Positions 1 to 50,682 of a stretch of 54,341 nt of DNA are shown piece by piece. The position numbers and the translations under genes were made by a program. Each line of letters starts with the position of its first letter. Within the stretch, counting starts at the first letter, position 1. Source of the stretch: Actinomycetes bacterium (lineage in GTDB: Bacteria > Actinomycetota > Acidimicrobiia > Acidimicrobiales > RAAP-2); assembly GCA_021828055.1 (NCBI GenBank), contig JAKATH010000008.1, positions 1 through 54,341 on the forward strand, in the 5' to 3' direction. The notes under the pieces were generated by a model. The model was not told where the DNA came from, did not search any database, and worked only from the letters and a program-made list of their open reading frames with translations.

Positions 1-2831
1 GGGGCTGTGCGACGGGTCCCAACACCTCTGGCTGCGCGACCACCGCGGGGACGAGCTCGGCCGCGATCTCCACGTCCCCTTGGCTCGCCGTGCCGCCGCC
101 CCTCTACGTCTCACCGAGTGGGACATCTGCTCACGCCGACACGTCGTGCTCGACGGCTGCGTACACGAGCATCCAATCCGCGGTGAACGCGGCGGTCCCG
201 AGCGCGACGGTCTACGTCTGTGCGGGTACATACACGGTCCACGACGTCGTCGTGTCGAAGCCGTTGATCCTGCGGACGACAGGCAAGGCGACGCTCACTG
301 GCACAGGCCCGATCTTCAACCTCACAGACGGGTCCGCGGGTGTGACGACAGTTACGATCACCGGCTTTACCTTCTCGAACGTGACCGGCACTGGGTACAA
401 CGGGGTCATCACCGTCGGCGGTCACGGCGCCGGCAACGTCACGGTCGAGCACAACGTCTTCAGCCACACGACGGACGAAGCCATCGGGTACCACGGGAAC
501 CACGGGCTGAGTGGGACACTCGGGAAGCACTGGACCATCGACACAAACACGATCTCGGACGTGACCGGTAATACAACCGCACGAGACGGCATGTTCCTCG
601 GCAACGTGAGCACAAGCATCGTGCGGGGCAATTCCATCACAACCACCGCATGGGCGGGGATCGTCCTGACCGCAGGCACAACACCACAACCTGGTTACGA
701 GCACAACAACGACATCGTCGACAATGCGGTGAAGCACGTGCCCGAGGAGGGGATCCAAGTCGCATTCGGCCAGAACGACGTGGTGTCGGGCAACTACGTC
801 GATGACGCAGGAATGGGCAGTACGACGGGGGTTGCAGCAATGGCTGGCCAGGTGAGTGGCCGTAACTGCGCCGTCTGCCTCTTCGACACTCAGCAGAAAG
901 ACATCTCGATCACAGGCAATACCCTGACCAACAGCTACGAAGGCGTCGGTGTAGGCCAGGTCAGCGTCAACTCCGCGATCGGCCCACTCGGAACAGGGAT
1001 CGCGGTGACCGGCAACAACGTCACAGGCGACACCCAGTTCGGTGTGACCAACGACGCCACCAGCGGAGTTCTGGACGCGACCGGCAACTGGTGGGGAAGC
1101 GCGAGCGGGCCGTACAACCCCAGCACCAACCCGAGCGGAACCGGTTCGCCGGTGTCGACACACGTCAGCTACAGGCCGTGGTGCATCCGCTTCGCCTGCA
1201 GCTCGCCGCCGCCCCCCCCGACGACACCGCCTGCGCCACCCAAGACATCGACGGACCCTGCGACGGGAAGCTCGTCCACCCAGACAGGCACGACGGGCGA
1301 CGTCACGAGCAGTGACTCGGCGACGAAGACGACGGTGTCGGTGGACGCGACCGGGATCGGCGGGATCACCGTCGCGCAGTACACGGCGAACCCGGTGACA
1401 AAGGAGCCGTTCACCACTTCGACCAGCACGGGCTATTTCGACATCGAAGTTTCCGCCGGCAACAGCTTTACCTCGGTCTCGGTCAAGGTGTGCAGCCCGA
1501 ACGCGGGCGCCGGTGTCGACTGGTACACGGGGAGCGCCTGGGAACCGGTCGTCGGTGATCCAGGACCGACCGCCACCTCGGGCACACCGCCATGCGTCAG
1601 CTTCACCCTGACGGCGTCGAGCACGCCTTCGATCAGCCAGCTGACAGGCACGGTGTTCGCAACCGCGTCCGTGGCGCCGCGAGTCACAACCGTCTACGGC
1701 CAGACAGCCGACGCCACCGCGGCGGCTGAGTTCACGCGGGCGTTCCCCTCGACAAAGGGGGCGTGCCCAAGCTCCCGTGCAGCGGTCATCGCCACGACAA
1801 AGGAGTTCCAGGACGCGCTCAGTAGCCAGTCCCTGGCGGCGCACCTGACAACCGGGACCCTGCTCACCCCGACGGAGAGCCTGGCCCAGGTCACCGCGAC
1901 CACCCTGAAGGACGAGGGGATCACCACCGTCTATCTCGTGGGCGGCCCGCTCGCGATCACGACAACGGTGGCGTCCGCGATCGGGAACCTCACAGCCTAC
2001 GGCTGCGGCGGGTCCACGGCCTCGGGCAAGATCGCCGTCCACCGCCTCGCAGGTACGACGCAGTACGCGACGGCGGAGGCCGTCGCCGAGTTCGTCGGGA
2101 CGGCAAGCAGCCTGGCCTTCCCCGGCGCCTACGCCGGCACGAACGCCACAGGCGGCACGGGCAAGTACAACGACACCGCAGGGAAGGGCTCGTCGGCGCC
2201 GTCCGGCGCGGTGCCGACGGCCATCTTGGCCTCCGGCGTCGAGTTCCAAGACGCGCAGTCGGCGAGCGTGATCGCCTACCGGACAAAGCTCCCGCTGCTC
2301 CTCACCCCTGCGACGACGCTGTCCACAACAGCGGTCGCAGCCATCGAGAAGCTCGGAGTGAAGCAGGTGATCCTGATGGGCGGACCCCTCGCGGTCACCA
2401 ACACAGTCGAGTCGGCCCTCGTGGCCAAGACCGGCGTCTCGGTGCTCCGAGTCGCCGGGAAGGACTACACCGACACGGCCCGTGAGCTCGTCCGCTTCGA
2501 GGCGGCAAGCTCGACAGCCGGCCTCGGGTGGACAGTCGGCCACCGGGTCATGGTCGCCAGGGGGAACGGCTTCACCGACGGGCTCTGTGGCGCGGTGCTG
2601 GAGAACGCCCATAACACCCAGACAGGGGCGCCGGGAACCACGCGTCCGTTGCTGCTCACCGAGAACCCGACGACAGTGGGCACCTACCTCACCACATTCC
2701 TGAAGGTGACAGGGCACACGGGCATTGACGGGAGGGCAGGAGCGACCGTCACGGCCTTCACCGTCCTCGGCGGCCCCCTCGCTGTGAGCACGGCGGAGAT
2801 CTCGGCGATGCAGGCAGACCTGACCGACTGA
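1..2831 (+). CDS. Secreted right-handed beta-helix protein with C-terminal cell-wall-binding repeats (5'-partial)
   Basis: The reading frame is open to the window's left edge (codons begin at base 3), so the true start and any signal peptide lie outside; the GTG at 90 is only the first visible start codon. About 350 residues of Asn/Gly/Thr-rich repeats (ITGNTLTNSYEGVGVG, IAVTGNNVTGDTQFGVT) look like a parallel beta-helix of the NosD/pectate-lyase fold. A Pro/Thr/Ser linker near 1205-1310 follows. From about 1683 to the stop there are three copies of a CW_binding_2-like module, marked by FQDALS/FQDAQS and VYLVGGPLAI / VILMGGPLAV / FTVLGGPLAV. Such repeats anchor surface proteins to the wall in Gram-positive bacteria. 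It probably binds or processes a polysaccharide or acts as an adhesin. No catalytic residues could be identified, so enzymatic activity is not claimed. Confidence 0.85.
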   Translation, partial: GCATGPNTSGCATTAGTSSAAISTSPWLAVPPPLYVSPSGTSAHADTSCSTAAYTSIQSAVNAAVPSATVYVCAGTYTVHDVVVSKPLILRTTGKATLTGTGPIFNLTDGSAGVTTVTITGFTFSNVTGTGYNGVITVGGHGAGNVTVEHNVFSHTTDEAIGYHGNHGLSGTLGKHWTIDTNTISDVTGNTTARDGMFLGNVSTSIVRGNSITTTAWAGIVLTAGTTPQPGYEHNNDIVDNAVKHVPEEGIQVAFGQNDVVSGNYVDDAGMGSTTGVAAMAGQVSGRNCAVCLFDTQQKDISITGNTLTNSYEGVGVGQVSVNSAIGPLGTGIAVTGNNVTGDTQFGVTNDATSGVLDATGNWWGSASGPYNPSTNPSGTGSPVSTHVSYRPWCIRFACSSPPPPPTTPPAPPKTSTDPATGSSSTQTGTTGDVTSSDSATKTTVSVDATGIGGITVAQYTANPVTKEPFTTSTSTGYFDIEVSAGNSFTSVSVKVCSPNAGAGVDWYTGSAWEPVVGDPGPTATSGTPPCVSFTLTASSTPSISQLTGTVFATASVAPRVTTVYGQTADATAAAEFTRAFPSTKGACPSSRAAVIATTKEFQDALSSQSLAAHLTTGTLLTPTESLAQVTATTLKDEGITTVYLVGGPLAITTTVASAIGNLTAYGCGGSTASGKIAVHRLAGTTQYATAEAVAEFVGTASSLAFPGAYAGTNATGGTGKYNDTAGKGSSAPSGAVPTAILASGVEFQDAQSASVIAYRTKLPLLLTPATTLSTTAVAAIEKLGVKQVILMGGPLAVTNTVESALVAKTGVSVLRVAGKDYTDTARELVRFEAASSTAGLGWTVGHRVMVARGNGFTDGLCGAVLENAHNTQTGAPGTTRPLLLTENPTTVGTYLTTFLKVTGHTGIDGRAGATVTAFTVLGGPLAVSTAEISAMQADLTD

Positions 2832-3439: not shown

Positions 3440-3540
3440 GATGTTCCGCCAGGCATGCGACATCGGTGCAACCCGGCCCACGCGCCAGGGAGCGCCCAAT
3501 TGTGGGTCTGCGCCTGCTCGGCGCGCAATACCTCGGCCCG

Positions 3541-4296
3541 TCACAGCTCGGCTGCAGACAGCTGAGCGAGCAACGAGGCCGTCGCCGCGGCGATCGGCCT
3601 GCGCGGCGAGCGGTCTCGGACCACGAGGTCGAGCCCGTCCCGTTCGGCGACGACTGCACCCGCCTCGGTGCACACGAGCACCGCTGCGACGTAGTCCCAG
3701 ACCGACAGCGCAGACCGTCCCGCGATGCGGTAGGCGTCGAGCGCGCCTTCGGCCACTGCGCACATGTCCAGCGAGGCGGCCCCGAGCGCTCGGAACTGCG
3801 CCCAACCGGGGTACGCACGCGGGAAGCCAGAGATGCCCACGACTGCATCGGACAGCTCGGTGGTCGTCGCAGGGCGGACGGGGACTGCGTCCCGGAACGC
3901 CCCTTCGCCGCGCACCGCGTGATATCGGGCTCCCGACACCTGGTGGACGACCAGGCCGACGAGCGCGCCTGCCTCGTCGAGCACGCACAGGCTCGTGGCG
4001 TACCACGGGATCCCGAGCGCGGCGTTCGTCGACCCGTCGACCGGGTCCACGACCACGAGGAGCCCCGACTCGGGTCCGGAGCGGCCCGACTCCTCCGACA
4101 GGACCCCCAGACCCTCGCCGTGGAGCACCGCGCACAGCGCGTCGTCGGCCACGACGTCGAAGGCGTACTGCCCTGGCCGCGTGCCAGGTCGACGACGGTC
4201 GACGGGGTCGATCCCGTCCAGCGCGGCCCGTACGGCCCGAGCCCCTTCCAAGAGCACCGGGAGGAGCTCGTCGGGTTCTCCGGGTCCTCTGCCCAC
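3541..4296 (-). CDS. Inositol monophosphatase family phosphatase
   Basis: A 251-residue protein with the family's metal-binding signature DPVDGSTN followed by GIPWYATSLCVLD. The second signature is near the C-terminus: SALSVWDYVAAVLVCTEAGAVV, the WD...EAGG motif with Ala in place of the first Gly. EESG upstream supplies the first acidic ligand. The family hydrolyses phosphate monoesters such as inositol-1-phosphate, histidinol phosphate or PAP with Mg2+; the substrate cannot be fixed here. I chose the GTG at 4296 rather than the upstream ATG at 4362 because a -10 box (TAGTCT) sits 8 nt before it. An ATG start would place the promoter inside the gene. The length then fits the family's usual 250-270 residues. 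Confidence 0.87.
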   Translation of the reverse strand: MGRGPGEPDELLPVLLEGARAVRAALDGIDPVDRRRPGTRPGQYAFDVVADDALCAVLHGEGLGVLSEESGRSGPESGLLVVVDPVDGSTNAALGIPWYATSLCVLDEAGALVGLVVHQVSGARYHAVRGEGAFRDAVPVRPATTTELSDAVVGISGFPRAYPGWAQFRALGAASLDMCAVAEGALDAYRIAGRSALSVWDYVAAVLVCTEAGAVVAERDGLDLVVRDRSPRRPIAAATASLLAQLSAAEL

Positions 4297-4304
4297 GGCC
4301 CGGC

Positions 4305-4310
4305 AGACTA
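4305..4310 (-). promoter_or_regulatory. -10 box for leaderless phosphatase transcript
   Basis: TAGTCT on the minus strand, 8 nt before the GTG at 4296, which leaves no room for a Shine-Dalgarno leader. Confidence 0.5.
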
Positions 4311-4334
4311 CCGGTGGGGTCGCGCACCGCTCGC

Positions 4335-4380
4335 GGCACGACGGAGACGGCCCTGCTGGCACGACGGAGACGGCCCTGCT
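4335..4380 (+). repeat. Tandem duplication, 23 bp x 2
   Basis: Two perfect 23-bp copies (each GGCACGACGGAGACGG then CCCTGCT) lie between the divergent promoters of the phosphatase and the next gene. It may affect promoter spacing; no protein is encoded here once the phosphatase start is set at 4296. Confidence 0.9.
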
Positions 4381-4420
4381 CGGCGCCTCACCGGCGCATC
4401 ACCGCCCTCCGTCCACCCCG

Positions 4421-4426
4421 TAATCT
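4421..4426 (+). promoter_or_regulatory. -10 box for the 4437 gene
   Basis: TAATCT 10 nt before the GTG at 4437; no purine-rich Shine-Dalgarno sequence lies between, so the transcript is probably leaderless. Confidence 0.45.
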
Positions 4427-4436
4427 CGTACTCACT

Positions 4437-4994
4437 GTGGCTGCTATCGATGTCGCCGGCTACGTCGCCGACCTGAAGGACCACTCCGTCGACCACGGGT
4501 TCCACGTCCACGACGAGCGCCATTTCGTCGAGACGTACTCCCTGCGGCAGGTCTGGGAGGTCGACCTCCACCCCGAGGAGGGTTGCGGAGGGCCGCTGGA
4601 CCTGCACCTCGCGCTCGAGGTCGACCCGCGGGTGCTGCTCTCCTTCGAGGACGTGGTCATGGAGCTCTCGGACGACGAAGAGCCGCCCGACGACTTCCAC
4701 TTCCCATTGACGTTCACGTGGGCCCTCCCCCCGCTGCCGCACGGACCCGACCTCCTCCGGCTCGCCATCGACCTGGCAGGCATCGGCGGCATCGAGCTGC
4801 CCCTCGAAGTGTCGGCGATCGACTCGTTCGCGTCGGCGACCGACGGGCCCGAGCGCCGGCTCAACATCGTCGCCAGGCACCCGGTCTCCCTCGCCAGGGT
4901 GCTCGGCGGCGAAGAGCTGCTCTGCGACGTCTTCGATCGGTGCCTCGCGGTCAGCCGCTTCCTCCTCGAAGCTGCCGAGACCTGGCTGGGGTGA
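4437..4994 (+). CDS. Conserved-looking hypothetical protein, acidic, 185 aa
   Basis: I do not recognise the family. The protein is acidic and soluble with no membrane segment. It contains GFHVHDERHFVETYSLRQVWEVDLHPEEG and a run of alternating hydrophobic/acidic strands (LHLALEVDPRVLLSFEDVVMEL), which suggests a beta-rich fold. The GTG start was chosen because the open frame upstream (from 3441) is Arg/Pro-rich and runs antisense through the phosphatase gene. A TAATCT box also lies just before this GTG. The stop overlaps the GTG start of the lipoprotein gene by 4 nt (GTGA), so the two are translationally coupled. Confidence 0.75.
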   Translation: MAAIDVAGYVADLKDHSVDHGFHVHDERHFVETYSLRQVWEVDLHPEEGCGGPLDLHLALEVDPRVLLSFEDVVMELSDDEEPPDDFHFPLTFTWALPPLPHGPDLLRLAIDLAGIGGIELPLEVSAIDSFASATDGPERRLNIVARHPVSLARVLGGEELLCDVFDRCLAVSRFLLEAAETWLG

Positions 4995-7441: not shown

Positions 7442-7547
7442 GGGCGGGAGGCAGCTCGTTCCTCGGTGTGCCCTGGTCACGAGCATTTTCCCTCGGGGGA
7501 GCGTGGGTGGGAGCGGCGGGGGGAGCGCCGACGCGCACCGTCGCCGC

Positions 7548-8306
7548 ATGACGACCGACGCACTCCGACCGCTCGACCGGCTCGTATGGGACTGGGAGTC
7601 CCGACGTCGCTCGCAGGCGTCTCGAGACGCGTTGCGAGCGCTCGCACATGCCGAGCCCGAGGTGGCACGGGTCGGCGCGGCGGACCTCGGCGACCTCGTC
7701 GAGGCGCTCATCGGCTCGAGCCGGACCCCACGTCCGGCGGGGCGGGGGCGGCCCGAGCGCGACCTCGCCGGTGCGCTGTTCAGGGCCGCGTTGCGCTCGG
7801 GGCACGTCCACCCGCTGGTGTCCCGCGCGCTCGTCCAAGCGCTCGTGCCGGGGCTCGTCGGCGTCGCGCGCCGCCTCACATGGGGAAGAGGGGGCGAGTG
7901 GGAGAGCCAGGGCGCCTTCTTCGTCGACGCGATCACCACCGCGTGGGAGGTCGTCGAGGAATGGAGCGGGCAGGACCGGACGTACGCGGTGCTCGACGTG
8001 CTCTCGGCCATCCGCTGCCGGCTCCGCCGGCGCATCCGTCGGCATCACGACCTGCGTCTCTCCGAGCGCCTTGCCTCCGACGACGAGCGACTGCCGGAGT
8101 GGGCGACTCCCAGCGGGAGCGACGTCGAAGAGCTGGCGCGTGCCATCGACAGGGAGCGACGCGAGCTCGACGCGGGTGACGCCGCCGTGCTCTACGCCCA
8201 CCGGGTCCTCGGCTACTCGCTCTCCGAGATCTCTGCGCGCTCGGGCCACTCGCGGCGATTCCTGGCAGCGGGTCGGGACCGGGCGGCTCGCGCGCTCATC
8301 GCTTGA
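7548..8306 (+). CDS. Sigma-factor-like / HTH regulatory protein
   Basis: A 252-residue protein starting MTTDALRPLDRLVWDWESRR. The middle (RALVQALVPGLVGVARRLTW to VLDVLSAIRCRLRRRIRRHHDLRL) is all-helical and resembles a degenerate sigma region 2. The C-terminus (ELDAGDAAVLYAHRVLGYSLSEISARSGHSRRFLAAGRDRAARALIA) reads as a helix-turn-helix of the sigma region 4 type. The ATG at 7548 was chosen because codons upstream to 7362 encode a Pro/Gly/Arg-rich stretch antisense to the neighbouring promoter. The gene precedes the membrane protein and LysM-BTAD genes in the same orientation, so a regulatory role over them is plausible. Sigma activity is inference; it may be a structural HTH protein. Confidence 0.65.
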   Translation: MTTDALRPLDRLVWDWESRRRSQASRDALRALAHAEPEVARVGAADLGDLVEALIGSSRTPRPAGRGRPERDLAGALFRAALRSGHVHPLVSRALVQALVPGLVGVARRLTWGRGGEWESQGAFFVDAITTAWEVVEEWSGQDRTYAVLDVLSAIRCRLRRRIRRHHDLRLSERLASDDERLPEWATPSGSDVEELARAIDRERRELDAGDAAVLYAHRVLGYSLSEISARSGHSRRFLAAGRDRAARALIA

Positions 8307-8357
8307 GAATCGGCGTGGAGCGCCATGGCGAGATCGGGTCGACGCTCGCAGGGACCC

Positions 8358-8385
8358 TGCAGCGAACGCTGCAGCCCGCTACGTT
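8358..8385 (+). promoter_or_regulatory. Palindromic operator candidate plus -10 box
   Basis: A 16-bp palindrome (TGCAGCGAACGCTGCA, 8358-8373) lies 6 bp before a TACGTT box (8380-8385) upstream of the Ser/Thr/Pro-rich membrane protein gene. In that position a bound protein would block or recruit RNA polymerase. A GTG exactly 7 nt after the box (8393) opens only a 36-codon frame. Confidence 0.45.
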
Positions 8386-8430
8386 GTCGGGGCGTGGAAG
8401 GTGCGTGCCCGGCGGGCACGGACTTGGGGA

Positions 8431-9642
8431 ATGGGAAGACGGCGCGCGGCAGGGCCCGGTTGCCCGGCGACCGGCGCCGTCCTCGGCATGCACGCGGTGG
8501 CTGATCTTGCGCGCCGGTCCCGTGCCTGGGGCGTCCTCGCGGTGTCGCTCGCGCTCATGGCGCTCGTGACGGCGCTCTCCACCAGGACCGACCACCCCGG
8601 CGATGCGCAGGGGGCGGCGGCTCTCGAGCCCTCCAGGCCCGGGCAGGCTGCGCCCGCCGGGCGGCAGCGTCCGCCTGCGAAGCCGGCGACGACGCACGTG
8701 TCCGGTGCAGCCTCGGGAGCCCTCGGGCCCAGGGGCGACTCGGTCGGACGACGCGCCGCCGCTCAGGGGCCCGGCGGGGCCGCGACGTCGAAGGGGCCCG
8801 GGGGGGCCGCAACGTCGAAGGGAGCCGGCTCGGCCGCGGTCAAGAAGACGGGTCCGACCGAGAGCGGGCAGAGCAGCGCATCCGACGTGGGCGCCTCCCT
8901 CGGGGGTCTCGCGTCGGCCGTCTTCTCTCCATCCCCCTTGTCCACCACCTCCACCACCAGCGGTCCCCAAAGCGGTCCCAGCGGTCCCCCAACGAGAACC
9001 GCCGCTACAGGCGCTGCAGCCCTTCAGGGGACGGCGAACGCACGGACAGCTCCCACCACCTCCCGCACGACCACGACGTCGTCGGCGCCCCGCACCTCGA
9101 CCCGCACGGCCACGACGTCATCGGCGCCCCGCACCTCGACCCGCACGGCCACGACGGCGCCGGCGCCCCGCACCTCGACCCACACGGCCACGACGTCGTC
9201 GGCGCCCCGCACCTCGACCCACACGACCACGACGTCGTCGGCGCCCCGCACCTCGACCCACCACCAGACGCCCCCGACGACATCGTCGGGGGCGAGGGGT
9301 GCCGGCGGCAGCAGCGCCAGCACGCAGGGTGCCACGGCAACGCCGACAAGCCCCGAACACGGTCGGATCGAAGCGCCCTCTACGTCGGTCTCGTATGCCG
9401 CAGCGGGGGGAGGGACGGTCTCGGCCATGGCCACCTGGACCGGCTCCGCGACGCTCGAGCTCGAGATCGCCTGCCCAGGTGGTGTCGCCGTCGCGCGCAG
9501 GGGTTCGTCGGGGCTGTCCCTCGAGGTCGACGACAGCAACGACTCTGCGACCTGCATGGTCACGCTCAGCCTTCCACCGGGCGTGCACGCCGACGTGTCG
9601 TTCACGCTCGTCGTCGGGCCCGCCGCGTTGGCGCAAGGATGA
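8431..9642 (+). CDS. Membrane-anchored Ser/Thr/Pro-rich repeat protein
   Basis: About 403 residues. A single transmembrane segment near the N-terminus (AWGVLAVSLALMALVTALS) is followed by a roughly 280-residue low-complexity region rich in Ala, Thr, Ser and Pro. That region includes five 13-residue repeats (TTSSAPRTSTRTA type). The last 90 residues form a compact beta-rich domain with two Cys (LELEIACPGG and SATCMVTLSLPPG), probably disulfide bonded outside the cell. The Thr/Ser stretch is a typical stalk and possible O-mannosylation target. The start is uncertain: ATG 8431, ATG 8488 and GTG 8401 are all in frame. The stop overlaps the ATG of the LysM-BTAD gene (ATGA), so the two are coupled. 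No enzymatic motif. Confidence 0.7.
   Translation: MGRRRAAGPGCPATGAVLGMHAVADLARRSRAWGVLAVSLALMALVTALSTRTDHPGDAQGAAALEPSRPGQAAPAGRQRPPAKPATTHVSGAASGALGPRGDSVGRRAAAQGPGGAATSKGPGGAATSKGAGSAAVKKTGPTESGQSSASDVGASLGGLASAVFSPSPLSTTSTTSGPQSGPSGPPTRTAATGAAALQGTANARTAPTTSRTTTTSSAPRTSTRTATTSSAPRTSTRTATTAPAPRTSTHTATTSSAPRTSTHTTTTSSAPRTSTHHQTPPTTSSGARGAGGSSASTQGATATPTSPEHGRIEAPSTSVSYAAAGGGTVSAMATWTGSATLELEIACPGGVAVARRGSSGLSLEVDDSNDSATCMVTLSLPPGVHADVSFTLVVGPAALAQG
9073..9267 (+). repeat. In-frame tandem array, 39 bp x 5
   Basis: Five consecutive 39-bp units (boundaries 9073, 9112, 9151, 9190, 9229) encoding 13-residue Thr/Ser/Pro/Arg repeats; copies differ by a few substitutions. Confidence 0.9.
9269..9294. 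repeat. 26-bp near-perfect palindrome within coding sequence
   Basis: Two 12-bp arms (CGCCCCCGACGA and TCGTCGGGGGCG) separated by only CA, immediately after the 39-bp array. On RNA it would be a very stable hairpin. Confidence 0.8.
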
Positions 9643-12617
9643 GGAGCGCTCGCGTGCGTCGCTCCGCGAGGGAGGCCGTCGTCGGGGCCGCCGCCGCGTT
9701 GCTCGTCTTCGGTGCGGTACCGGGGGTGCTCGTCGGGCTCGTGGGCCTGCCGGTCCCCCACCGATGGACGGCCCACGCCGTCGTGTCGTGGCATGGCCTC
9801 TTCGACCTGCTGGCCGTTGCGAGCTGGTGCGCGTGGGCAGGATGCGCGTGGCCCATCCTGAGATCGGTGGCCTCCCGAGTGCGGTCAGGCGACGTCGCGC
9901 CGACCGCCCGGTTCTCTGACCGGATCGCGGTCCGGATCACGCTCGGCGTGCTCGTGCTGGCGTCCTGTTTCGGGCTGGGCGCGTCGGTTGCCGGCGCGTC
10001 GGTTGCCGGCGCGTCGGTTGCCGGCGCGTCGGTTGCCGGCGCGTCGGTTGGGGGCGCGTCTGCGGCGGCGCGGGCGACCGCGGCGGCACCTCCGACCTCG
10101 CCACCGGCACCATCCTCACGTGGTGCGGCGACGCCCGGGACCGAGCAGGTGGAAGCGGTCGGCATACGGGGCTCCACGAAGACGGCCTCTTGGGTCATGA
10201 GGCCGGGCGACACGCTCGCGAGCCTCGCGGCGACCCACTACGGCGCCGTGTCCGACTGGCCCGCGATCGCCGCAGCCAACCTTGGCCGGCTCATGGACGA
10301 CGGAACGCGCTTCGTCGACCCGGCCGTCATCGCTCCGGGGTGGACCCTCGTGCTGCCGGCGCTCGACGCGGACACCCGCTCCGACACGGGGCTGGAGCGA
10401 GCAGCCGGCGCCGGGCCCGCCCCCGGCACCCCTGTCGACGGCTCTGCCACCGCCGCCCTGCTTCCCTCGGGCGGCTCCGTGCTGCCCCTCGCCGAGCTCG
10501 CGGCGTCGGGCATCAGCGCCCTCGTCGCTGGGCTGCTCGCCCGCCGCGCTCGTCAGCTGCGCCGCCTGCGCGCCTTCCTCCGAGAGGAGGGGGAGGAGAG
10601 CGCCCTTCCGGATGCGCGGGAGGCCGATCTCGGCGCCCTCCTCGCGCCGTTCGAACAGGTCCCGCTCGTCGACATGGTGGAGGTGGCCGCACGCGATCTC
10701 GGAGACGTGCTCGCGACACTCGCCCCCACTCCCGGCGCGGTCCTGTGGCTGCGCGCCGGGCGCGACGGCGTCGAGGTCCGCTTCTCGACACCGGTGCCCG
10801 AGCGCGTGCGTGGCTGGCGCCGTACCGGGCATGCGACGTGGCTGCTCCCCGCCACGGTCGACCTCGCGGAGCGAGCGCATGCGTCGCCACGAGCCGAGCC
10901 CTGGTGCGCGCTGCTCCTCCCCATCGGTGACGACGACCGCGGCACGTGGCTGCTCCCGGTCGGCGCCGGATCGAGGGTCGCCGTGGTCGGGCCGCGGGCG
11001 GCAGACCTCGTCCGCACGATGCGCGCAGCGGTGACGACGTGGAGCTGGCACGAAGAGGTCGTCGTGACCGAGGACGTCGACGAGGTGACCGATGCGCTGG
11101 GCCGCGCGGCGCGCTCCTCGACCGGTGTGCGGGCGGTCGGGCCCCAGGTGCTCTTCGTCGGCGACCCGAAGGCGCTCTCGGCGAGGGCGCGAGGAGCGTG
11201 CGCGGTGCTCAGCGCCGGAGTGACCGACGCGGAGACGGTCGTCTTCGTCGACGACCGGGCCGCGAGCGCCCACCCGCTCGGGCTGACCGTCCGCCCCCCG
11301 TTGCTCGACGCCTCCTTGAAGGGTGCCGTCGACGCGCTGACCGGCCCGAGCAACGGAGACCTGGCAGCGGATCGGCGAGACGGGCAGCACGGACGGGGGG
11401 AGCCGCCATCGGGCGGCCCGGCACCTGCGAGCCCTGCGCGCTCGCTCGTCCACCGCGGGACCGCACTCGCCACCGTCCGTGTCGCCGACGACGGGCCCGG
11501 CACCGGCACGACGACGCACCTCAGCCCCACCTCGTCTTCCGGCACGGCGCGTGGCGGCGCGTCCACAGCTGCAAGCCGTGGAAGCGCATCGGAGGTGCAG
11601 TCTCGGGGCAGGGCGGAGGTCCAGTCTCGGGGCAGGGCAGAGGTCCAGTCTCGGGGCAGGGCGGAGGTCCAGTCTCGGGGCAGGGCGGAGGTGCGGCTGC
11701 TCGCGACCGTGCCCGGCATCGTCGGCCTTCAGGGGGAGCTGCCGGCGAAGCGAGCCCGGCGGGCGCTGGAGCTGATCGCCTACCTGGCCGTGCAGACGCC
11801 CGACCCGGTCACCGGCGACCGGCTGCGGACGCGGGTCCTCGGGTCAGCCGACGCCGACGCTGCGGCCAAGACCCTCTTCAACACGGTGGGTGCCGCACGA
11901 CGGGCCCTCGGCGTCGCGCCGGACGGCGAGCCCCTCCTCCCTCCGGCGTCCCGTTCGGGCCACTACCGCCTGTCCCCGCTCGTGACCGTCGACGCGTTGC
12001 GTGCGTGCGCGTTGGTCCACGAGGGGCTGGCATGCCGTGATGCGACCGGGTCGGTGGCCCGGCTCCGGGAGGCGCTCGAGCTCGTGAAGGGCGAGCCGCT
12101 CGGTGGCGTCCTCACCGGCTACGCGTGGTGGCGGGCGGAGGGCCACGAGCGGCGGGTGGCCGACGCGGTGGTCGACGGCGCCTGCGCGCTCGTCGGCGCG
12201 GCCCTCGACTCGGGCGACGTCGACCTCGCCCGGTGGGCCCTCGTGCAGGCGAGGAAGGTGGAGCCCTACAGCGAGTCGCTCGCGCGCGCGGCGATGCGCG
12301 TCGCCGCGGCAGGTGGGGACGTGCGCCGCCTCCACGCGGAGTGGCTGGAGTGCCAGCGCAAGATGGACGAGCTCGACCCGGGCGGAGTGCCCTCGGAGCG
12401 CACCGAGCGGCTCTATGCGACGCTCCGAACGCAGCTCGCAGGCTCCAGCAACGGCACCAGCACCAGCACCAGCTCCGGCACCAGCTCCGGCACCAGCTCC
12501 GGCACCGGCACCGGCTCCGGCTCCGGCACCGGCAAGGAGAGCCCCGGTCAGGCGAGCTTCGCCGCGATCGAGGCTGCGCCCTTGAGGAGCGTGCCGTCGG
12601 CGCCTTCGACCGTGTAG
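9639..12617 (+). CDS. Membrane LysM-BTAD (SARP-like) protein, 992 aa
   Basis: Order of parts: membrane segments in the first 110 residues (VVGAAAALLVFGAVPGVLVGL; ITLGVLVLASCFGLG); five ASVAG repeats (residues 115-139); a LysM domain at about 181-240 (VMRPGDTLASLAATHYG ... WTLVLP); another hydrophobic segment near 285-305; a roughly 270-residue alpha/beta region of unknown type (to about 565); four EVQSRGRA repeats; and a C-terminal bacterial transcriptional activator domain (about 685-930, ALELIAYLAVQTPDPVTGDRLR to LDPGGVPSERTERLYATLRTQL), as in SARP regulators and secretion-linked proteins. A Gly/Ser/Thr tail closes it. LysM binds N-acetylglucosamine glycans. The combination suggests wall sensing coupled to a protein-interaction or regulatory module, but no N-terminal OmpR-type DNA-binding helix is evident. 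Its last 70 bp overlap the convergent ddl gene. Confidence 0.82.
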   Translation: MRSARVRRSAREAVVGAAAALLVFGAVPGVLVGLVGLPVPHRWTAHAVVSWHGLFDLLAVASWCAWAGCAWPILRSVASRVRSGDVAPTARFSDRIAVRITLGVLVLASCFGLGASVAGASVAGASVAGASVAGASVGGASAAARATAAAPPTSPPAPSSRGAATPGTEQVEAVGIRGSTKTASWVMRPGDTLASLAATHYGAVSDWPAIAAANLGRLMDDGTRFVDPAVIAPGWTLVLPALDADTRSDTGLERAAGAGPAPGTPVDGSATAALLPSGGSVLPLAELAASGISALVAGLLARRARQLRRLRAFLREEGEESALPDAREADLGALLAPFEQVPLVDMVEVAARDLGDVLATLAPTPGAVLWLRAGRDGVEVRFSTPVPERVRGWRRTGHATWLLPATVDLAERAHASPRAEPWCALLLPIGDDDRGTWLLPVGAGSRVAVVGPRAADLVRTMRAAVTTWSWHEEVVVTEDVDEVTDALGRAARSSTGVRAVGPQVLFVGDPKALSARARGACAVLSAGVTDAETVVFVDDRAASAHPLGLTVRPPLLDASLKGAVDALTGPSNGDLAADRRDGQHGRGEPPSGGPAPASPARSLVHRGTALATVRVADDGPGTGTTTHLSPTSSSGTARGGASTAASRGSASEVQSRGRAEVQSRGRAEVQSRGRAEVQSRGRAEVRLLATVPGIVGLQGELPAKRARRALELIAYLAVQTPDPVTGDRLRTRVLGSADADAAAKTLFNTVGAARRALGVAPDGEPLLPPASRSGHYRLSPLVTVDALRACALVHEGLACRDATGSVARLREALELVKGEPLGGVLTGYAWWRAEGHERRVADAVVDGACALVGAALDSGDVDLARWALVQARKVEPYSESLARAAMRVAAAGGDVRRLHAEWLECQRKMDELDPGGVPSERTERLYATLRTQLAGSSNGTSTSTSSGTSSGTSSGTGTGSGSGTGKESPGQASFAAIEAAPLRSVPSAPSTV
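9981..10055 (+). repeat. In-frame tandem array, 15 bp x 5
   Basis: Units of GCGTCGGTTGCCGGC encode ASVAG five times; the first four are identical and the last differs by two bases. Confidence 0.95.
11592..11687 (+). repeat. In-frame tandem array, 24 bp x 4
   Basis: Units start at 11592, 11616, 11640 and 11664 and encode EVQSRGRA four times; copies differ at one or two positions. The array lies in the linker just before the BTAD domain. Confidence 0.95.
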
Positions 12618-13669
12618 TGGTGCGAGGGGCGGGCGCCGGCCTCCGCGACCATGTCGGAGAGCAGGGTCCGGAACGGCACAGGGGGGTCGATCCACAGGTA
12701 CCTGGCGAGTGATCCCGGGATGGTGTTGACCTCGTTGACGTAGAGCTCCTGGCCGTTGGAGAGGAAGTCCACCCGGGTGACGCCGCGCACCGAGCAGAGC
12801 CGGGCCACCGACGTCGCCACGTCGCGCAGCGTCTTTTCGAGGCCGCCGCCGATGGCCGCGGGAAGCTCGCGCGGCGCGCTCGCCATGCCCTCGCCGCCGG
12901 TGTACTTGTCCGCGTACCCGAGGATGTCGGGCTCGCCCGCCGCCCCTCCGGCGCGCGGGGTGCGCAGGGGCCGCTCGATGGCCGAGAGCGCGAGCTCCGG
13001 CCACGAGCGCACCGCGATCTGGAGGTCGTACAGGTCGGCGCGATAGGGCTCGATGACCGCGCCCTTCCTCAGGTGACGGTTGGCGTCGAGCAGTGCGAGC
13101 GCCGTCTGGAGGTCGGCGACGTTCGCGGCGATCCCGATGGAGGACCCGCCGAACCGCGGCTTCACGATGTAGGGAGGTCCGAAGCCTGCGTCTTTCGTCG
13201 ACCCGTCCAAGAGGGCACGCGGCAGCGTGGGAAGGCCGGCTGCGGCCATCACGTCGCCGAACGCGAGCTTGTCCATGCCCAGGGCCGCGCCGGCAACCGT
13301 CGGGCCGGTGTACCGGACTCCTGCGAGGTCGAGGGCGGCCTGCAGCGTGCCGTCCTCACCGGGTCCCCCGTGGCAGCACACCACTGCCACGTCCACGCCG
13401 ATGGGCCGCGCCCTCCCCAGCCGCCCCGCCTCCGAGGCGAACCCGGACTCAAGGAGGAGCTGGACGCGGGTCGCGCCTCGCGGCACCCCCTCCGAGAAGG
13501 CGCTCGCCTCCAGGCCGGGGTCGACTTCGTACCACTCGCCCGTCTTGGTCCAGTACAGGCAGCGTGCGCCGAGCGCGCGCGCAGCCTGGAGACCGGTGAG
13601 GACGCTGACGTCGTGCTCGGGGGACGGGCCGCCGAAGACGACGGCACGATCGGAGGTGGCATCGGCCAC
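12548..13669 (-). CDS. ddl: D-alanine--D-alanine ligase
   Basis: A 373-residue ATP-grasp ligase that joins two D-Ala for the peptidoglycan stem. Visible signatures are the N-terminal AVVFGGPSPEHDVSVLTG (family GGxSxEhxVS), CCHGGPGEDGTLQAALDLAGVRYTG, the ATP-grasp lysine region PPYIVKPRFGGSSIGI and the metal-binding C-terminus VTRVDFLSNGQELYVNEVNTIPGS. The GTG start is preceded by an AGGGAG Shine-Dalgarno sequence. It follows murF on the same strand after 90 bp, so two successive steps of wall-precursor synthesis are co-located. The 3' end overlaps the LysM-BTAD gene tail to tail by 70 bp. It is somewhat divergent from DdlA/B, so a related D-Ala-D-Xaa ligase cannot be excluded. Confidence 0.88.
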   Translation of the reverse strand: MADATSDRAVVFGGPSPEHDVSVLTGLQAARALGARCLYWTKTGEWYEVDPGLEASAFSEGVPRGATRVQLLLESGFASEAGRLGRARPIGVDVAVVCCHGGPGEDGTLQAALDLAGVRYTGPTVAGAALGMDKLAFGDVMAAAGLPTLPRALLDGSTKDAGFGPPYIVKPRFGGSSIGIAANVADLQTALALLDANRHLRKGAVIEPYRADLYDLQIAVRSWPELALSAIERPLRTPRAGGAAGEPDILGYADKYTGGEGMASAPRELPAAIGGGLEKTLRDVATSVARLCSVRGVTRVDFLSNGQELYVNEVNTIPGSLARYLWIDPPVPFRTLLSDMVAEAGARPSHHYTVEGADGTLLKGAASIAAKLA

Positions 13670-13759: not shown

Positions 13760-15316
13760 CTAGGGGTAGTGGTCCGGCAGGTCGTTCTCGTAGAGGACGG
13801 CGTCGCCTGGCCCGAGGTTGGCCCGCACCCAGGCCACAGCCTGCTCGCGCGTGCGGACCGCGACTCCCGGCCCGAGACTGTCTGCGCCGCGGAGCAGCGC
13901 GCGCCGGTTGGTGAGCCCTACGATCACCACGCTCGACGCGACCGCGCACGCGGCGCGGCCGAACGCTTCGTTCTCGCCGGCCTGGCGCCGTCCCAGCTCG
14001 ACCATCCCCGGGGTCACCACGACCCTCTTCCCCGTCGCCGGACTCGCAGCGAGGAGCTCGAGCGCGGCGCGCGCCCCGGCCGGGTTCGAGTTGAAGGTGT
14101 CGTCGATGACGTGGACGCCGGACGCCGACGTGTCAGCGGTGAGGCGGTTGGCCACGGTCGGGATGGTCGGGATCCGCTCGACCACCGTCTCTGCGGGGAC
14201 GCCCAGCTGGAGCGCGACGGCCACCGCACAGGCGACGTTGGTTGGCTGGATCCCCGGGCGAAGCGGTACCGGTGCGCCCACGGCCGTACCGCCGACGATC
14301 ACCGTGGCCCCTCCGTCCCCCATGTGGAGCCTGACGTCGGCGCTCGGGTCCTCGACCGCCGCCCGCACCACCCGAGGGTGCTCGGCACCGGCGTCGAGCC
14401 GCGATCCCAGCGCGGCGAGACGGCGATCGTCGGCGTTCACGACGACCGTTCGGGCCCCCTCGGTGATCTCGGACTTGGCGGCGAGGATCGCGTCCTCGGT
14501 GCCGAAGCGCTCGAGGTGCACGGGCCCGACCGCGGTCATGACGGCGATCTCAGGAGGGCACCAGCGGCACAGGTCGCGGATCTCTCCCGGCCCGTACGTG
14601 CCCATCTCCGCGACGAAGACGTCGGTGCCTTCGGCGAGCTGCTCGTTCACCGCGCGCGCGAGACCACCGCGGTTGTTGTACGACGCAGGAGTGCTCACCA
14701 CCGTCTTCGTGCCGGCGACGAGGTGTGCGATGTGGTTCTTCGTCGACGTCTTGCCGTACGAACCGGTGATCGCGACGATCGTCGGTCCGACCCGGCGGAG
14801 CCGCTCGGCCGCCATGGCCACGAACCGCTCGGACAGCCGGCGTTCGATCGGCGCCGTCGTGAGCAACGCAGCGTCGACGAGGGCCGGTGCCGCCACGAGG
14901 GCCGCGGCGGCGAACGGCGCCGGGGCGCCGACACCCGCTCCGATGCCGAGCAGCGCAGCCTCGAATGCCAGCCAGACCGCCGCGAGCGTCTCGAGGCGTC
15001 GGGTGAAGACGAGCGGTGAGGTGCGTCCCCGGATCGACAGGTGCAGAGGGGCGAAGACCGCGACGGCGGCCGTCGCGAGGGCGACCAGCGGCCAGAGCCC
15101 GGCCAGCACGACGCCTGCGAGCCCGACCACCCCGAGCAAGACGTTCACCGGTTCGCTCGTCCACCACCGGAGGGCGAATCGACTGGCCGAGTCGGGGATG
15201 TAGTGCTCTCGTTGCGCGACGCGGAGCCACCGCGCTCCCGCGGGCACGATCGCGAGGGTGCACGCGCCAAACGCACCCCACGCCGCCGGGCTCGTGCCAG
15301 CCAGTGCCGCCACCAT
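13760..15316 (-). CDS. murF: MurF-type Mur ligase with N-terminal membrane domain
   Basis: A 518-residue protein. The first 130 or so residues are hydrophobic with several predicted transmembrane helices (FGACTLAIVPAGARWL, VNVLLGVVGLAGVVLAGLWPLVAL, FAAAALVAAPALVDAALL). The rest is a Mur ligase with P-loop GSYGKTSTKNHIA, the catalytic region VFVAEMGTYGPGEI, the central-domain motif IDDTFNSNPAGARAALELL and a C-terminal ligase domain. MurF adds D-Ala-D-Ala to UDP-MurNAc-tripeptide, the product of the neighbouring Ddl. The membrane domain is not part of classical MurF (about 450 aa) and would tether synthesis to the membrane. Start ATG 15316 overlaps the preceding hydrolase stop by one base. A related Mur-ligase paralogue remains possible. 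Confidence 0.85.
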   Translation of the reverse strand: MVAALAGTSPAAWGAFGACTLAIVPAGARWLRVAQREHYIPDSASRFALRWWTSEPVNVLLGVVGLAGVVLAGLWPLVALATAAVAVFAPLHLSIRGRTSPLVFTRRLETLAAVWLAFEAALLGIGAGVGAPAPFAAAALVAAPALVDAALLTTAPIERRLSERFVAMAAERLRRVGPTIVAITGSYGKTSTKNHIAHLVAGTKTVVSTPASYNNRGGLARAVNEQLAEGTDVFVAEMGTYGPGEIRDLCRWCPPEIAVMTAVGPVHLERFGTEDAILAAKSEITEGARTVVVNADDRRLAALGSRLDAGAEHPRVVRAAVEDPSADVRLHMGDGGATVIVGGTAVGAPVPLRPGIQPTNVACAVAVALQLGVPAETVVERIPTIPTVANRLTADTSASGVHVIDDTFNSNPAGARAALELLAASPATGKRVVVTPGMVELGRRQAGENEAFGRAACAVASSVVIVGLTNRRALLRGADSLGPGVAVRTREQAVAWVRANLGPGDAVLYENDLPDHYP

Positions 15317-16077
15317 CAGACGAGGTACCGCTCGACGGCTGCCCGCAGCTCGCCGGGAGCGGCGAGGGGGACGAGATGACCGGCGTGCGGCAGCACGACG
15401 AGGTCCACGGCGCGCTCCGCGTCGGCGTCGTGCAGACGAGCGAGGCCGGCCTGCGCGACGCGAAGCGGCACTGTCAGGTCGTCCTCGCCCCACACGAGCG
15501 TCACGGGGCAGGAGATGGCGTCGAGCTGCGCTTCGTAGCTCTCCGCCACGATCCGGCCGTGCACCTGGCGCATCACCCCGCTCGCCGCCGCATAGTCCGC
15601 CGAGCCGTAGCGCCGCCGCGCGCGCTCCATGCGCTCATCGGAGAGGACACCCGCCCGGTGCAGCGTGCGCAGCGCGCGGTACCCGAGCCGGGGCCGCCGC
15701 GCCGGCCCGGGGCGCAGGAGCGGCACGCCGGTGAGCACGAGCGCGTGGACCGCGTCGGGGCGGTCGGCTGCCAGGTGGACCGCGACCCGGCCCCCGAAGG
15801 AGTGTGCGAGGACGACCACGGGGCTTGCCATCTCCTCGAGCACCGCGCCGACGCAGTCCGCGTAGTCGGCCGAGCCCCACGGCTGGGCGGGGGGCGGGGC
15901 AGTCCCGAACCCGGGAAGGTCGACCGCGATCGCCGCGAGCTCCGCGGCGCCCGCGGGGCGAAGCACGGCGTCGAAGTCACGATGGGTCCGGCCCCAGCCG
16001 TGCAGCGCCAAGACCCTCGGCTCCCCGTCCCCCGTCCGGGTGCCGAAGAGCCTCCCGCCGGCGAAGGTGCGCAGCAC
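15316..16077 (-). CDS. Alpha/beta hydrolase
   Basis: A 253-residue alpha/beta-hydrolase-fold protein. It has the oxyanion motif LALHGWGRTHRDFD, nucleophile elbow AHSFGGRVA (Ser), acid WGEDDLTVP (Asp) and catalytic His in LPHAGHLVPL. There is no signal peptide, so it is cytoplasmic; substrate unknown. It is the first gene of the hydrolase-murF-ddl operon, and its TGA shares one base with the murF ATG. The GTG start has GAGAGGAG upstream. Linkage to wall synthesis suggests a precursor-related or lipid-related esterase, but this is inference. Confidence 0.85.
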   Translation of the reverse strand: MLRTFAGGRLFGTRTGDGEPRVLALHGWGRTHRDFDAVLRPAGAAELAAIAVDLPGFGTAPPPAQPWGSADYADCVGAVLEEMASPVVVLAHSFGGRVAVHLAADRPDAVHALVLTGVPLLRPGPARRPRLGYRALRTLHRAGVLSDERMERARRRYGSADYAAASGVMRQVHGRIVAESYEAQLDAISCPVTLVWGEDDLTVPLRVAQAGLARLHDADAERAVDLVVLPHAGHLVPLAAPGELRAAVERYLV

Positions 16078-43837: not shown

Positions 43838-45058
43838 TCAGTGCACGTACTTGATGTAGGTGAGCATCGGCAGGTACAGGCTGATGATCACCGTGCCGAC
43901 GACGCCTCCCATCATCACGACGAGGAGCGGCTCGAGGATCGACGACAAGTTGTCGACGGTCTGGTCGACCTCGCCCTGGTAGTAGGAGGCGGCCTTGTCG
44001 AGCATGTCGTCGAGCGCGCCGGTCTGCTCACCGACCTCGACCATCTGGACCATGAGCTGGGGGAACACCGGGTTGGCTCGCATCGGGTCGGCGAACGGCC
44101 TCCCCGCGCGCACCGCCCGCTTGATCTCCTGGGTCGCCTTGGAGAAGACCGCGCTGCCAGACGCCCGAGCGACGATGTCGAGGGACTCGAGGACGGGCAC
44201 CCCCGACCTCGCGAGCGAGGCGAGCGTGAAGGAGAAGCGCGCGAGCGCAGTCTTGTGGACGAGCGGTCCGAAGATCGGTGGCCGGAGCTTCAGCGCGTCC
44301 CACTTCTCGCGGCCGCTCTCGGTCCCGATCCAGCGCCGCACCCCGACGATCCCGAAGACGACGACCGCAACGACGATCCCGGCGCGCCAGCTCGCCAGCG
44401 TGTTGGAGATCTCGATGACGATCCGGGTCGGCACCGGCAACGGGGCTCCCAGCGTCACGAAGAGGTTCTTGAAGACGGGGACGATCACCACCATCATCAC
44501 GACGAACAGGATCGAGATGACGCTCACCACGACCACGGGGTAGGTCATCGCGCCGCGGACCTTGCGGGAGATGGCCACCTGCTTCTCCAGTGCTGTCGCG
44601 ACCGACTTGAGCACGACGTCGATCGACCCGCCGACCTCCCCGGCGCGGACCATCGACACGTACAGCTCGTCGAAGACCTTCGGGTGCTTCGCCAGCGCCT
44701 CCGAGAGCGCGAGGCCGGTCTCCACGCCGTCGCGGACCTCGCGGATGACCCGGCTGAAGTGCTTGTTGGCGACCTGGGCCGAGAGCACCGTGAGCGAGCG
44801 GTTGATGGAGAGGCCGGACTCCACCATCGTGGCGAACTGCCGGGTGAACGCCGCGATCTCCTTGCCCTTGATCCGGTCGGTGATCCCGGGGATCTCGATC
44901 TCGCCCCGGAAGCCCGCGCGTGCGGGCGTGACCGAGACGGGCAGGTACCCCATCGAGCGGAGCCTTCCCACCACGAGGGCGAGGTTGTCGCCGTCGAGCG
45001 ACCCTTCGATCAGGTTGCCGCTACGGTCGCGCACCTTGTAGTCGAACGTGGTGGCCAT
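43838..45058 (-). CDS. pilC: Type IV pilus inner-membrane platform protein
   Basis: A 406-residue PilC/GspF protein. It begins MATTFDYKVRDRSGNLIEGSLDGDN and has two repeated cytoplasmic T2SSF domains: EIAAFTRQFATMVESGLSINRSLTVL ... VRAGEVGGSIDVVLKSVATAL, and FSFTLASLARSGVPVLESLDIVARASG ... VQMVEVGEQTGALDDMLDKAASYYQGEVD. Membrane segments are TYPVVVVSVISILFVVMMVVIVPVF and LLVVMMGGVVGTVIISLYLPML. It is the assembly platform turned by the PilB and PilT motors. It lies 3 bp after pilT in the pilB-pilT-pilC operon. Confidence 0.96.
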   Translation of the reverse strand: MATTFDYKVRDRSGNLIEGSLDGDNLALVVGRLRSMGYLPVSVTPARAGFRGEIEIPGITDRIKGKEIAAFTRQFATMVESGLSINRSLTVLSAQVANKHFSRVIREVRDGVETGLALSEALAKHPKVFDELYVSMVRAGEVGGSIDVVLKSVATALEKQVAISRKVRGAMTYPVVVVSVISILFVVMMVVIVPVFKNLFVTLGAPLPVPTRIVIEISNTLASWRAGIVVAVVVFGIVGVRRWIGTESGREKWDALKLRPPIFGPLVHKTALARFSFTLASLARSGVPVLESLDIVARASGSAVFSKATQEIKRAVRAGRPFADPMRANPVFPQLMVQMVEVGEQTGALDDMLDKAASYYQGEVDQTVDNLSSILEPLLVVMMGGVVGTVIISLYLPMLTYIKYVH

Positions 45059-45061
45059 GGT

Positions 45062-46201
45062 CTATCTCCCCACCAGGTGGCTGCGGAGGTCCTCCGCGCT
45101 GCGGCATCGGTCGATCGCGACCCCTTCGCTCACGGCACGCTCCCGCACGAGCTGCGCCAGGCTCTGGTCCATCGTCTGCATGCCGTGCTGCGAACCGGTC
45201 TGCATCAGCGAGTAGATCTGGTGGGTCTTCGCCCCGCGGATGAGGTTCTGGACCGCGGGCGTGCACATGAGGACCTCCGACGCAACTCGCCTTCCCTTCA
45301 TGTCCTCGGTCGGCACCAGCTGCTGGGTGACCACGCCGGCGAGCGAGGACGCGATCTGGATGCGGATCTGCTCCTGCTGGTTCGGCGGGAACAAGTCGAT
45401 CACCCGGTCGACCGTGGACGGGGCGTCCTGGGTGTGAAGGGTCGCGAACACGAGGTGGCCGGTCTCCGCCGCCGTGAGCGCGGTCGCGATGGTCTCGAGA
45501 TCGCGCATCTCGCCGACCAGGATCACGTCGGGGTCCTGGCGGAGCGCGCGCCGCAGCGCCTCGGCGAAGGACTTCGTGTCCAGACCCACCTCGCGCTGGG
45601 TGATGATCGAGCGTTTGTGCTCGTGGATGAACTCGATCGGGTCCTCGACCGTGACCACGTGCACCGGACGCGTCCGGTTGATGACGTCGATCAGCGCTGC
45701 GAGGGTCGTCGACTTGCCCGAGCCCGTGGGTCCCGTCACGAGCACGAGGCCGCGCCGCAGGCGTGCGAAGGTCCCGACCGCGCTCGGGAGCCCGAGGGTC
45801 TCGAGCTCGGGGACCTGGTTCGGGATCGGTCGGAGGGCCACGCGGACCGTGCCGCGCTGGAGGCACACGTTGACACGGAACCTCCCCACGCCGGCGATCT
45901 CGTGCGACGTGTCGAGCTCGTGGTCTGCTTCGAACTGCTCGCGCTGTGCCTGCGTCAGGATGCCGTAGACCAGGTTTCTCAGGGTCTCGTGGTCGATCCG
46001 CCCCACCTCCTCCATCGGCCGGAGCGCCCCGTGCAGGCGGATGGTGGGCGGCATGTGCGCGGTGAGGTGGAGGTCCGACGCGCCCACTGCCACGGCGTAG
46101 CGAAGGAGGTCGTCGACGTGCAGGGGCAGCGGCCCCTCGGAGATGGAGAGCAGGGGCAGCGGCGTCGTGCCGTTGAGCCCGTTGGTGGAGACGTCGGTCA
46201 T
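45062..46201 (-). CDS. pilT: Type IV pilus retraction ATPase
   Basis: A 379-residue PilT. LLRYAVAVGASDLHLTAHMPPTIRLHG is the family N-terminus; Walker A GPTGSGKSTTLAALI; the Asp box VHVVTVEDPIEFIHEHKRSIITQREVG; Walker B LRQDPDVILVGEMRDLETI; His box TGHLVFATLHTQDA; and the retraction-specific motif PAVQNLIRGAKTHQIYSLMQTG (family AIRNLIRE). It depolymerises pili for twitching or DNA uptake. The ATG overlaps the pilB stop by 4 nt (ATGA) and the gene leads into pilC. Confidence 0.96.
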   Translation of the reverse strand: MTDVSTNGLNGTTPLPLLSISEGPLPLHVDDLLRYAVAVGASDLHLTAHMPPTIRLHGALRPMEEVGRIDHETLRNLVYGILTQAQREQFEADHELDTSHEIAGVGRFRVNVCLQRGTVRVALRPIPNQVPELETLGLPSAVGTFARLRRGLVLVTGPTGSGKSTTLAALIDVINRTRPVHVVTVEDPIEFIHEHKRSIITQREVGLDTKSFAEALRRALRQDPDVILVGEMRDLETIATALTAAETGHLVFATLHTQDAPSTVDRVIDLFPPNQQEQIRIQIASSLAGVVTQQLVPTEDMKGRRVASEVLMCTPAVQNLIRGAKTHQIYSLMQTGSQHGMQTMDQSLAQLVRERAVSEGVAIDRCRSAEDLRSHLVGR

Positions 46202-48300: not shown

Positions 48301-48621
48301 CCCCTGTCATCCCCTGGCCCGGTCGGGCGACGCGGTCGAAGAGAGGCAAGAGAGCAGAGAGCCGCCATGGCTGCCCGCGCGTGCTGCACCGCTCCCCTGT
48401 GGTCCCATCCCACGGCCGCTCCGCGTACGAAGTGCCGGAGGCAGCTTACCCCCGATCCGCCCCGGAGGAAACCCCGGATCCGGCGGCGGCGGAGGCTCGC
48501 CCGAGGACCCCCCCCGATCCGCCCCGGGGGGTGCGCCCGGCGACGGCGGAGGCTCCCCCGGGGGTGCGCCCGGCCGCCGATGGCGAAGCGACGCACGCCC
48601 CGGCGCTACAGTCCGCTCGCG
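48301..48621. other. 321-bp gap between divergent pilB and pilD
   Basis: Very GC-rich, with duplicated blocks (CCCCCGATCCGCCCCGG near 48450 and 48510; CGACGGCGGAGGCTCCCCCG-like segments). The only functional signal I can support is the TACAGT box at 48607. No gene seen. Confidence 0.4.
48607..48612 (+). promoter_or_regulatory. -10 box for leaderless prepilin peptidase gene
   Basis: TACAGT, 9 nt before GTG 48622; the same hexamer precedes the 7369 gene. Confidence 0.5.
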
Positions 48622-49392: not shown

Positions 49393-49471
49393 CGCGCCGG
49401 GCGCCCGTGGACCCCCGTCCTCAGCGGGAGCGGGTCGACCTCAGCCGCCCATGACGCGCGGGGCGCCCGTG
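49379..49471. repeat. 31-bp direct repeat, 62 bp apart, including a stop codon
   Basis: The segment beginning TCAGCCGCCCATGACGCG occurs at 49379-49409 and 49441-49471 with one mismatch. The first copy contains the stop of the prepilin peptidase gene; the second ends just beside the pilT2 stop. Confidence 0.9.
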
Positions 49472-49472
49472 C

Positions 49473-50570: not shown

Positions 50571-50578
50571 GCCACGAG

Positions 50579-50584
50579 AGCCTA
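50579..50584 (-). promoter_or_regulatory. -10 box for leaderless pilT2
   Basis: TAGGCT on the minus strand, 8 nt before GTG 50570; same hexamer and spacing as gpsA. Confidence 0.55.
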
Positions 50585-50593
50585 CCCAGACCG

Positions 50594-50682
50594 CGGTGCA
50601 GCGGCCGGGACGCACGCGCGATGGGCTCCGTCCCCGATGCGCAGCCTGCTCACGGTGCAGCGGCCGGGGCGCACGCGCGACG
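50594..50682. repeat. 30-bp direct repeat, 59 bp apart
   Basis: A segment starting CGGTGCAGCGGCCGGG occurs at 50594-50623 and 50653-50682 with two mismatches, filling the gap upstream of pilT2. Confidence 0.88.

Follow-up and report, generated by a model that had tools for sequence, protein, structure and literature searches.

The best reading of the three adjacent genes described here is a regulatory membrane module, in which a membrane-anchored activator probably turns on its own sigma factor gene via a newly recognised repeat element, so that the trio would act as a switch. We assign a probability of roughly 0.55 to this reading, namely a membrane-anchored one-component SARP activator paired with a dedicated sigma factor in an operator-driven cascade. 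The wider proposal has somewhat less than even odds: a family-wide chromosomal cascade, not described before, in which a membrane-tethered SARP with kin in Tad operons directly drives the leaderless gene of its own divergent sigma factor and a conserved stalk protein serves as the outside sensor. The features concerned are listed below; all lie on the plus strand.

7497 to 7527, plus strand: three GGGAGCG heptamers with a 12-bp period (7497, 7509, 7521), predicted SARP-type operator (comparative)
7536 to 7541, plus strand: −10 element CACCGT, predicted leaderless start (most relatives have CAnnnT in the corresponding position)
7548 to 8306, plus strand: sigma-70-fold protein with regions 2 and 4, 252 aa (structure model, weak profile match, alignment)
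8357 to 8390, plus strand: predicted promoter region of the stalk gene, with CTGCAGC words 12 bp apart and a TACGTT −10-like box (box conserved in the genus)
8488 to 9642, plus strand: stalk protein, 384 aa (a single helix at the N-terminus, a linker rich in Ser/Thr/Pro/Ala and a beta-type domain at the C-terminus)
9639 to 12617, plus strand: LysM-SARP membrane protein, 992 aa (relatives, structure model, hydropathy)
10179 to 10364, plus strand: LysM domain, residues about 181–242, predicted outside (weak match, relatives)
11685 to 12449, plus strand: winged helix and BTAD (SARP domain), residues about 683–937, predicted cytoplasmic (Foldseek, relatives)

Layout and conservation of the three-gene module

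The window, i.e. the whole stretch of 54,341 nucleotides analysed here, is one contig of a genome that is 84% complete. The three co-oriented genes lie where the initial annotation had placed them, and the stalk and LysM-BTAD genes share 4 bp (ATGA). The LysM-BTAD gene runs convergently into ddl (12548–13669, minus strand), beyond which lies a Mur ligase of the MurF type (13760–15493, minus strand); both neighbours named initially were therefore found, on the minus strand. Searched as single sequences, none of the three proteins matched a Pfam model, and NCBIfam returned almost nothing for single window proteins; the domain names used for the trio come from relatives, not from the single sequences.

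Comparison across related genomes establishes the three genes as a conserved module. The LysM-BTAD protein was detected in 11 of 13 genomes of the genus, within a collinear block composed of a CHAP hydrolase gene, a small gene, the sigma, stalk and LysM-BTAD genes, ddl and murF. Across the family, the sigma-like protein occurs in 30 of 41 genomes (17/21 genera); the LysM-BTAD gene follows the sigma gene in 24/27 fetched stretches, and then come, mostly, ddl and murF. The neighbourhood search proposed in the initial annotation thus recovered the trio in about 16 genera of the family, with ddl-murF alongside in most cases, so that the first outcome it named as a refutation, an unconserved neighbourhood, did not occur. 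Two genomes (G055 and G065) keep the trio without ddl and murF, showing that this link is not obligatory. Among ten checked genomes without a sigma match, nine lack a module-type LysM-BTAD protein (weak Tad-type matches or none), and the tenth (G073) carries one near a contig start. Genus g43 is discordant (G072, G054).

Elsewhere in the window, the protein encoded at 90–2831 (plus strand) combines a beta-helix region with three CWB2 cell-wall-binding repeats. About 30 kb from the trio lies a locus of the type IV pilus type (43838–50615, minus strand), which encodes a T2SSF protein as well as three T2SSE ATPases, of which one has MshEN. A protein of about 190 aa (about 4400–4994, plus strand, inside the 3441–4994 frame) is unusually strongly conserved, with 96–98% identity in five genus genomes (L025, L030, L031, L033, L034), where neighbouring proteins mostly show 50–80%; no Pfam match was found for it.

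Domain architecture of the three proteins

The product of the first gene is well supported as a sigma-70 fold by its AlphaFold model (mean pLDDT 78), for which sigma factors account for nearly all top Foldseek matches in the PDB (best E 8e-3, probability 0.99). Seven genus members align with it over their full length at 51–92% identity. The match to TIGR02937 (sigma70-ECF) reaches 16.4 bits (E 0.005), below the cut-off of 42.9, and no sigma factor was matched when PDB sequences were searched by profile. Since the sequence falls below the curated family cut-off, the protein is named sigma-like here and not filed as a sigma factor; the initial label therefore holds for the modelled fold, whereas the profile match is weak. 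Like ECF-type sigma-70 factors, the protein combines sigma 2 and sigma 4 in a two-domain fold with a weak profile match, but it carries about 85 extra, helical N-terminal residues and its sequence lies far below the family cut-offs. In three further loci (L050, L051, L053), distant homologues lie, by eye, close to a gene resembling TraG/VirD4 (G027) or to integrase genes (G041, G042), and these neighbourhoods suggest a mobile-element branch of the sigma-like family.

The architecture of the stalk protein is the same in about 20 of 23 family loci. The exported stalk with a disulfide beta domain that had been annotated agrees with the N-terminal helix, the beta-type end domain and its two Cys, which are invariant in relatives. 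A homology of the stalk to TadG was considered and rejected, as BLAST against Tad loci gave no match and the two share only the position before the LysM-BTAD gene.

In the 992-aa protein, helices 1–3 are followed by the LysM-like domain, helix 4, a highly basic stretch, a middle cytoplasmic domain (residues about 325–560) for which no identity was found, and finally the winged helix and BTAD. Hydropathy and the positive-inside rule predict four helices, with both ends and the BTAD inside and the LysM outside; the second refuting outcome named in the initial annotation, a BTAD outside the cytoplasm, is therefore contrary to the predicted topology. The LysM match is weak in the window protein itself, and Pfam finds LysM in 5/11, BTAD in 2/11 and Trans_reg_C in 3/11 genus relatives. 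As the Pfam BTAD model, run against the own genome, did not detect the window protein, the BTAD assignment draws on relatives and fold. The structure model is poor overall (mean pLDDT 57), but LysM and the C-terminal BTAD helices are modelled well; its best PDB matches in Foldseek are EmbR and AfsR (E 7e-6 to 4.5e-5, probability 1.0), and these span the whole SARP domain, i.e. winged helix and BTAD together. A complete, cytoplasmic SARP activator domain of the EmbR/AfsR type at the C-terminus is thus well supported by prediction, and the earlier description of a multi-membrane protein joining LysM to BTAD agrees with the relatives' domains, the fold and the four helices.

The two ends of this protein differ in their constancy. 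LysM is present in 15/23 family loci having BTAD, absent in relatives of several genera (G062, G075, G057, G086, G067, G080, G087, G059) and present only in truncated form in one member of the genus (G003). The winged-helix/BTAD part is retained in every module, including those without LysM, and the winged helix is among the most conserved parts of the protein. As LysM is lost in several genera while the SARP part is always kept, the wall-sensing role via LysM proposed initially is weakened. The stalk is kept more consistently than LysM and may be an equal candidate for the outside sensor. In-frame tandem repeats, with copy numbers varying among species, occur in both genes: at 9040–9265 in the stalk linker, at 9980–10050 after helix 3 and at 11595–11690 before the SARP domain.

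Known SARPs are soluble proteins that activate antibiotic genes. The 992-aa protein shares its winged helix and BTAD, as a whole-domain fold, with AfsR of Streptomyces coelicolor and EmbR of Mycobacterium tuberculosis, but differs in being membrane-anchored with an outside part, in the C-terminal position of the SARP domain and in its candidate target, the sigma-like gene. ToxR/CadC-type membrane one-component regulators tie a cytoplasmic OmpR-type winged helix through the membrane to an outside part. The same link is predicted here; unlike them, the protein has four helices, a LysM, an added BTAD and its DNA-binding domain on the C-terminal side. In the literature, we found neither a studied precedent for a membrane-tethered SARP nor a paper on the function of a LysM-BTAD protein.

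A candidate SARP-type operator upstream of the sigma-like gene

The array of GGGAGCG heptamers sits just outside the coordinates of the initial annotation, which missed it. Its last copy is separated by 8 bp from the CACCGT box, which in turn stands 6 bp before the ATG of the sigma gene; scanning for consensus promoters gave no match. The repeat pattern occurs only once within the window, where 20 of 100 shuffles reach two matches; as two matches are not significant in a window of such composition, the evidence for the array is comparative. Allowing one mismatch, a pattern search of the 13 genus genomes gave 13 matches, 12 of which, in nine genomes, lie directly 5' of the sigma gene. Upstream of the sigma genes, a lag-12 periodicity was observed (combined z 9.4), and no other lag stands out. 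Across the family, GGGA-N8-GGGA precedes 20/25 sigma genes, compared with 0.3% of the other 160-bp stretches in these loci, and CAnnnT usually follows exactly 8 bp further on. The genomes are related, and the 20 cases should not be counted as independent; they do, however, come from many genera whose intergenic DNA has otherwise diverged. Two solo sigma paralogues without a LysM-BTAD neighbour (G072 and G055b) both lack GGGA-N8-GGGA, and the operator-like array persists in relatives without LysM.

At SARP promoters, direct repeats of 11 or 22 bp place their last copy 8 bp from the −10 element; the −10 box of afsS is CACTGT, and the afs box repeats start at −40 and −29 (PMC10936776). Assuming that transcription starts at the ATG, the repeats of the sigma gene lie at about −39 and −27, resembling the afs box. 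The array matches the SARP rule in its direct repeats, in the 8-bp spacing and in the weak CAnnnT type of the −10 box, here at a sigma gene, but its period is 12 bp, not 11. A precedent for three heptamers is PimR, whose single target is the regulator gene pimM (PMC5930380). Altogether, there is strong comparative evidence for a regulatory site at the sigma gene, predicted to be a SARP-type operator, and we infer that the 992-aa protein binds it.

The initial annotation had placed a control site at 8358–8373, upstream of the stalk gene; the conserved operator-like array lies upstream of the sigma gene instead. A perfect palindrome (CTGCAGCGAACGCTGCAG, 8357–8374; chance expectation 0.08, with up to 2 mismatches) is indeed present there together with a −10-like box. 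However, the site is not palindromic in relatives, and the palindrome was rejected as an operator after the genus comparison. What is kept at the stalk promoter is the TAnnnT −10-like box and, in most relatives, two TGCAG-like words 12 bp apart, at a spacing from the box that differs among species. These words form a second, different 12-bp repeat within the same module.

Proposed cascade, Tad relatives and competing explanations

In the proposed mechanism, the 992-aa protein would be held in the membrane by its four helices, with an outside loop carrying LysM in most relatives, and would sense a cell-surface condition directly or through the co-encoded stalk protein. Its SARP domain would bind the 12-bp-spaced GGGAG repeats and bring RNA polymerase to the weak CACCGT box, so that the sigma-like protein would be made from a leaderless mRNA. 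As an active sigma factor, this protein would in turn guide RNA polymerase to its own targets. In favour of the cascade count the fold match to EmbR and AfsR, the sigma fold, the predicted cytoplasmic SARP domain, the family-wide trio, the joint lack of sigma gene and module-type LysM-BTAD in nine of ten checked genomes, the operator at 20/25 sigma genes but at neither solo paralogue, its likeness to the afs box, its persistence where LysM is lost and the PimR precedent of a single regulator gene as target. Several points speak against this cascade: the 12-bp period departs from the classical 11 or 22 bp, a different SARP encoded in the genome might occupy the operator (contigs C92 and C123 carry BTAD matches), no curated family comes close to the sigma-like protein (16.4 vs 42.9 bits), genomes of genus g43 are discordant and no studied membrane-tethered SARP was found as a precedent.

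The competing explanation that survives best, though we consider it improbable, is that the LysM-BTAD protein mainly scaffolds or helps to assemble a surface structure, as its Tad-operon relatives may do, with BTAD, TPR-like in structure, serving to bind proteins and the operator serving another regulator. It draws on the company kept by relatives. In other families of the order, relatives of the 992-aa protein close Tad (Flp pilus) operons (SAF, TadZ, TadA, TadB, TadC, TadE/G, LysM-BTAD); annotated plasmids of Microbacterium, Embleya and Streptomyces show this order too, and a protein with LysM and BTAD of a propionibacterium plasmid is listed among Tad genes (PMC3666418). Distant sigma-like relatives also adjoin Tad operons in two families (G014, G015). 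These Tad-operon proteins share with the 992-aa protein the order of helices, LysM, helix, winged helix and BTAD, and are homologous to it by BLAST and profile. The window locus differs in its chromosomal position beside ddl-murF and in the unrelated stalk in the place of TadG, and no Tad genes were found there. TadA was found in 4/13 genus genomes, and no Tad ATPase in the other nine or in the own genome (84% complete). By sequence comparison, the module is a Tad-free chromosomal relative of the Tad-operon LysM-BTAD genes. Against a scaffold stand this lack of a Tad ATPase, the SARP-type operator tied to the module and the winged helix kept together with BTAD. Several Tad loci with at least six TadA copies were observed in one genome (G004; L035, L036, L037, L039), where relaxase-like and coupling-ATPase-like genes lie, by eye, near some of them; these loci are possibly conjugative elements carrying Tad pili.

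Less probable still is the version of the initial annotation, in which LysM binds peptidoglycan and BTAD holds or releases the sigma-like protein in an anti-sigma-like manner, tuning wall synthesis via ddl and murF. The adjoining ddl and murF in most genera and the frequency of LysM in the family loci agree with it, and an interaction between the sigma-like protein and BTAD is possible, as SARP domains contact sigma region 4 in the AfsR complex, where the SARP is a dimer (PMC10936776). However, LysM is repeatedly lost, the trio persists in two genomes without ddl/murF, these genes lie on the opposite strand and the operator is found almost only at the sigma gene. Finally, the GGGAG array could be coding, adding a Gly-Ser-rich stretch to the N-terminus of the sigma-like protein, or could be an element of translation, since 12 bp equal four codons and several species have an open frame upstream; we consider this very unlikely, because G001 has no close in-frame upstream start, G010 has a close upstream stop, glycine is nearly always GGG and serine AGY in the core, and the −10 box with its 8-bp spacing is conserved too.

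The membrane-anchored SARP cascade consequently remains our preferred reading. LysM-BTAD proteins of Tad operons are widespread, and we found no function for them in the literature; with its defined candidate operator, the Tad-free module could show directly whether these proteins are transcription factors at all. If the reading is true, a membrane SARP targeting a sigma gene would represent a new actinobacterial route from a surface signal to transcription.
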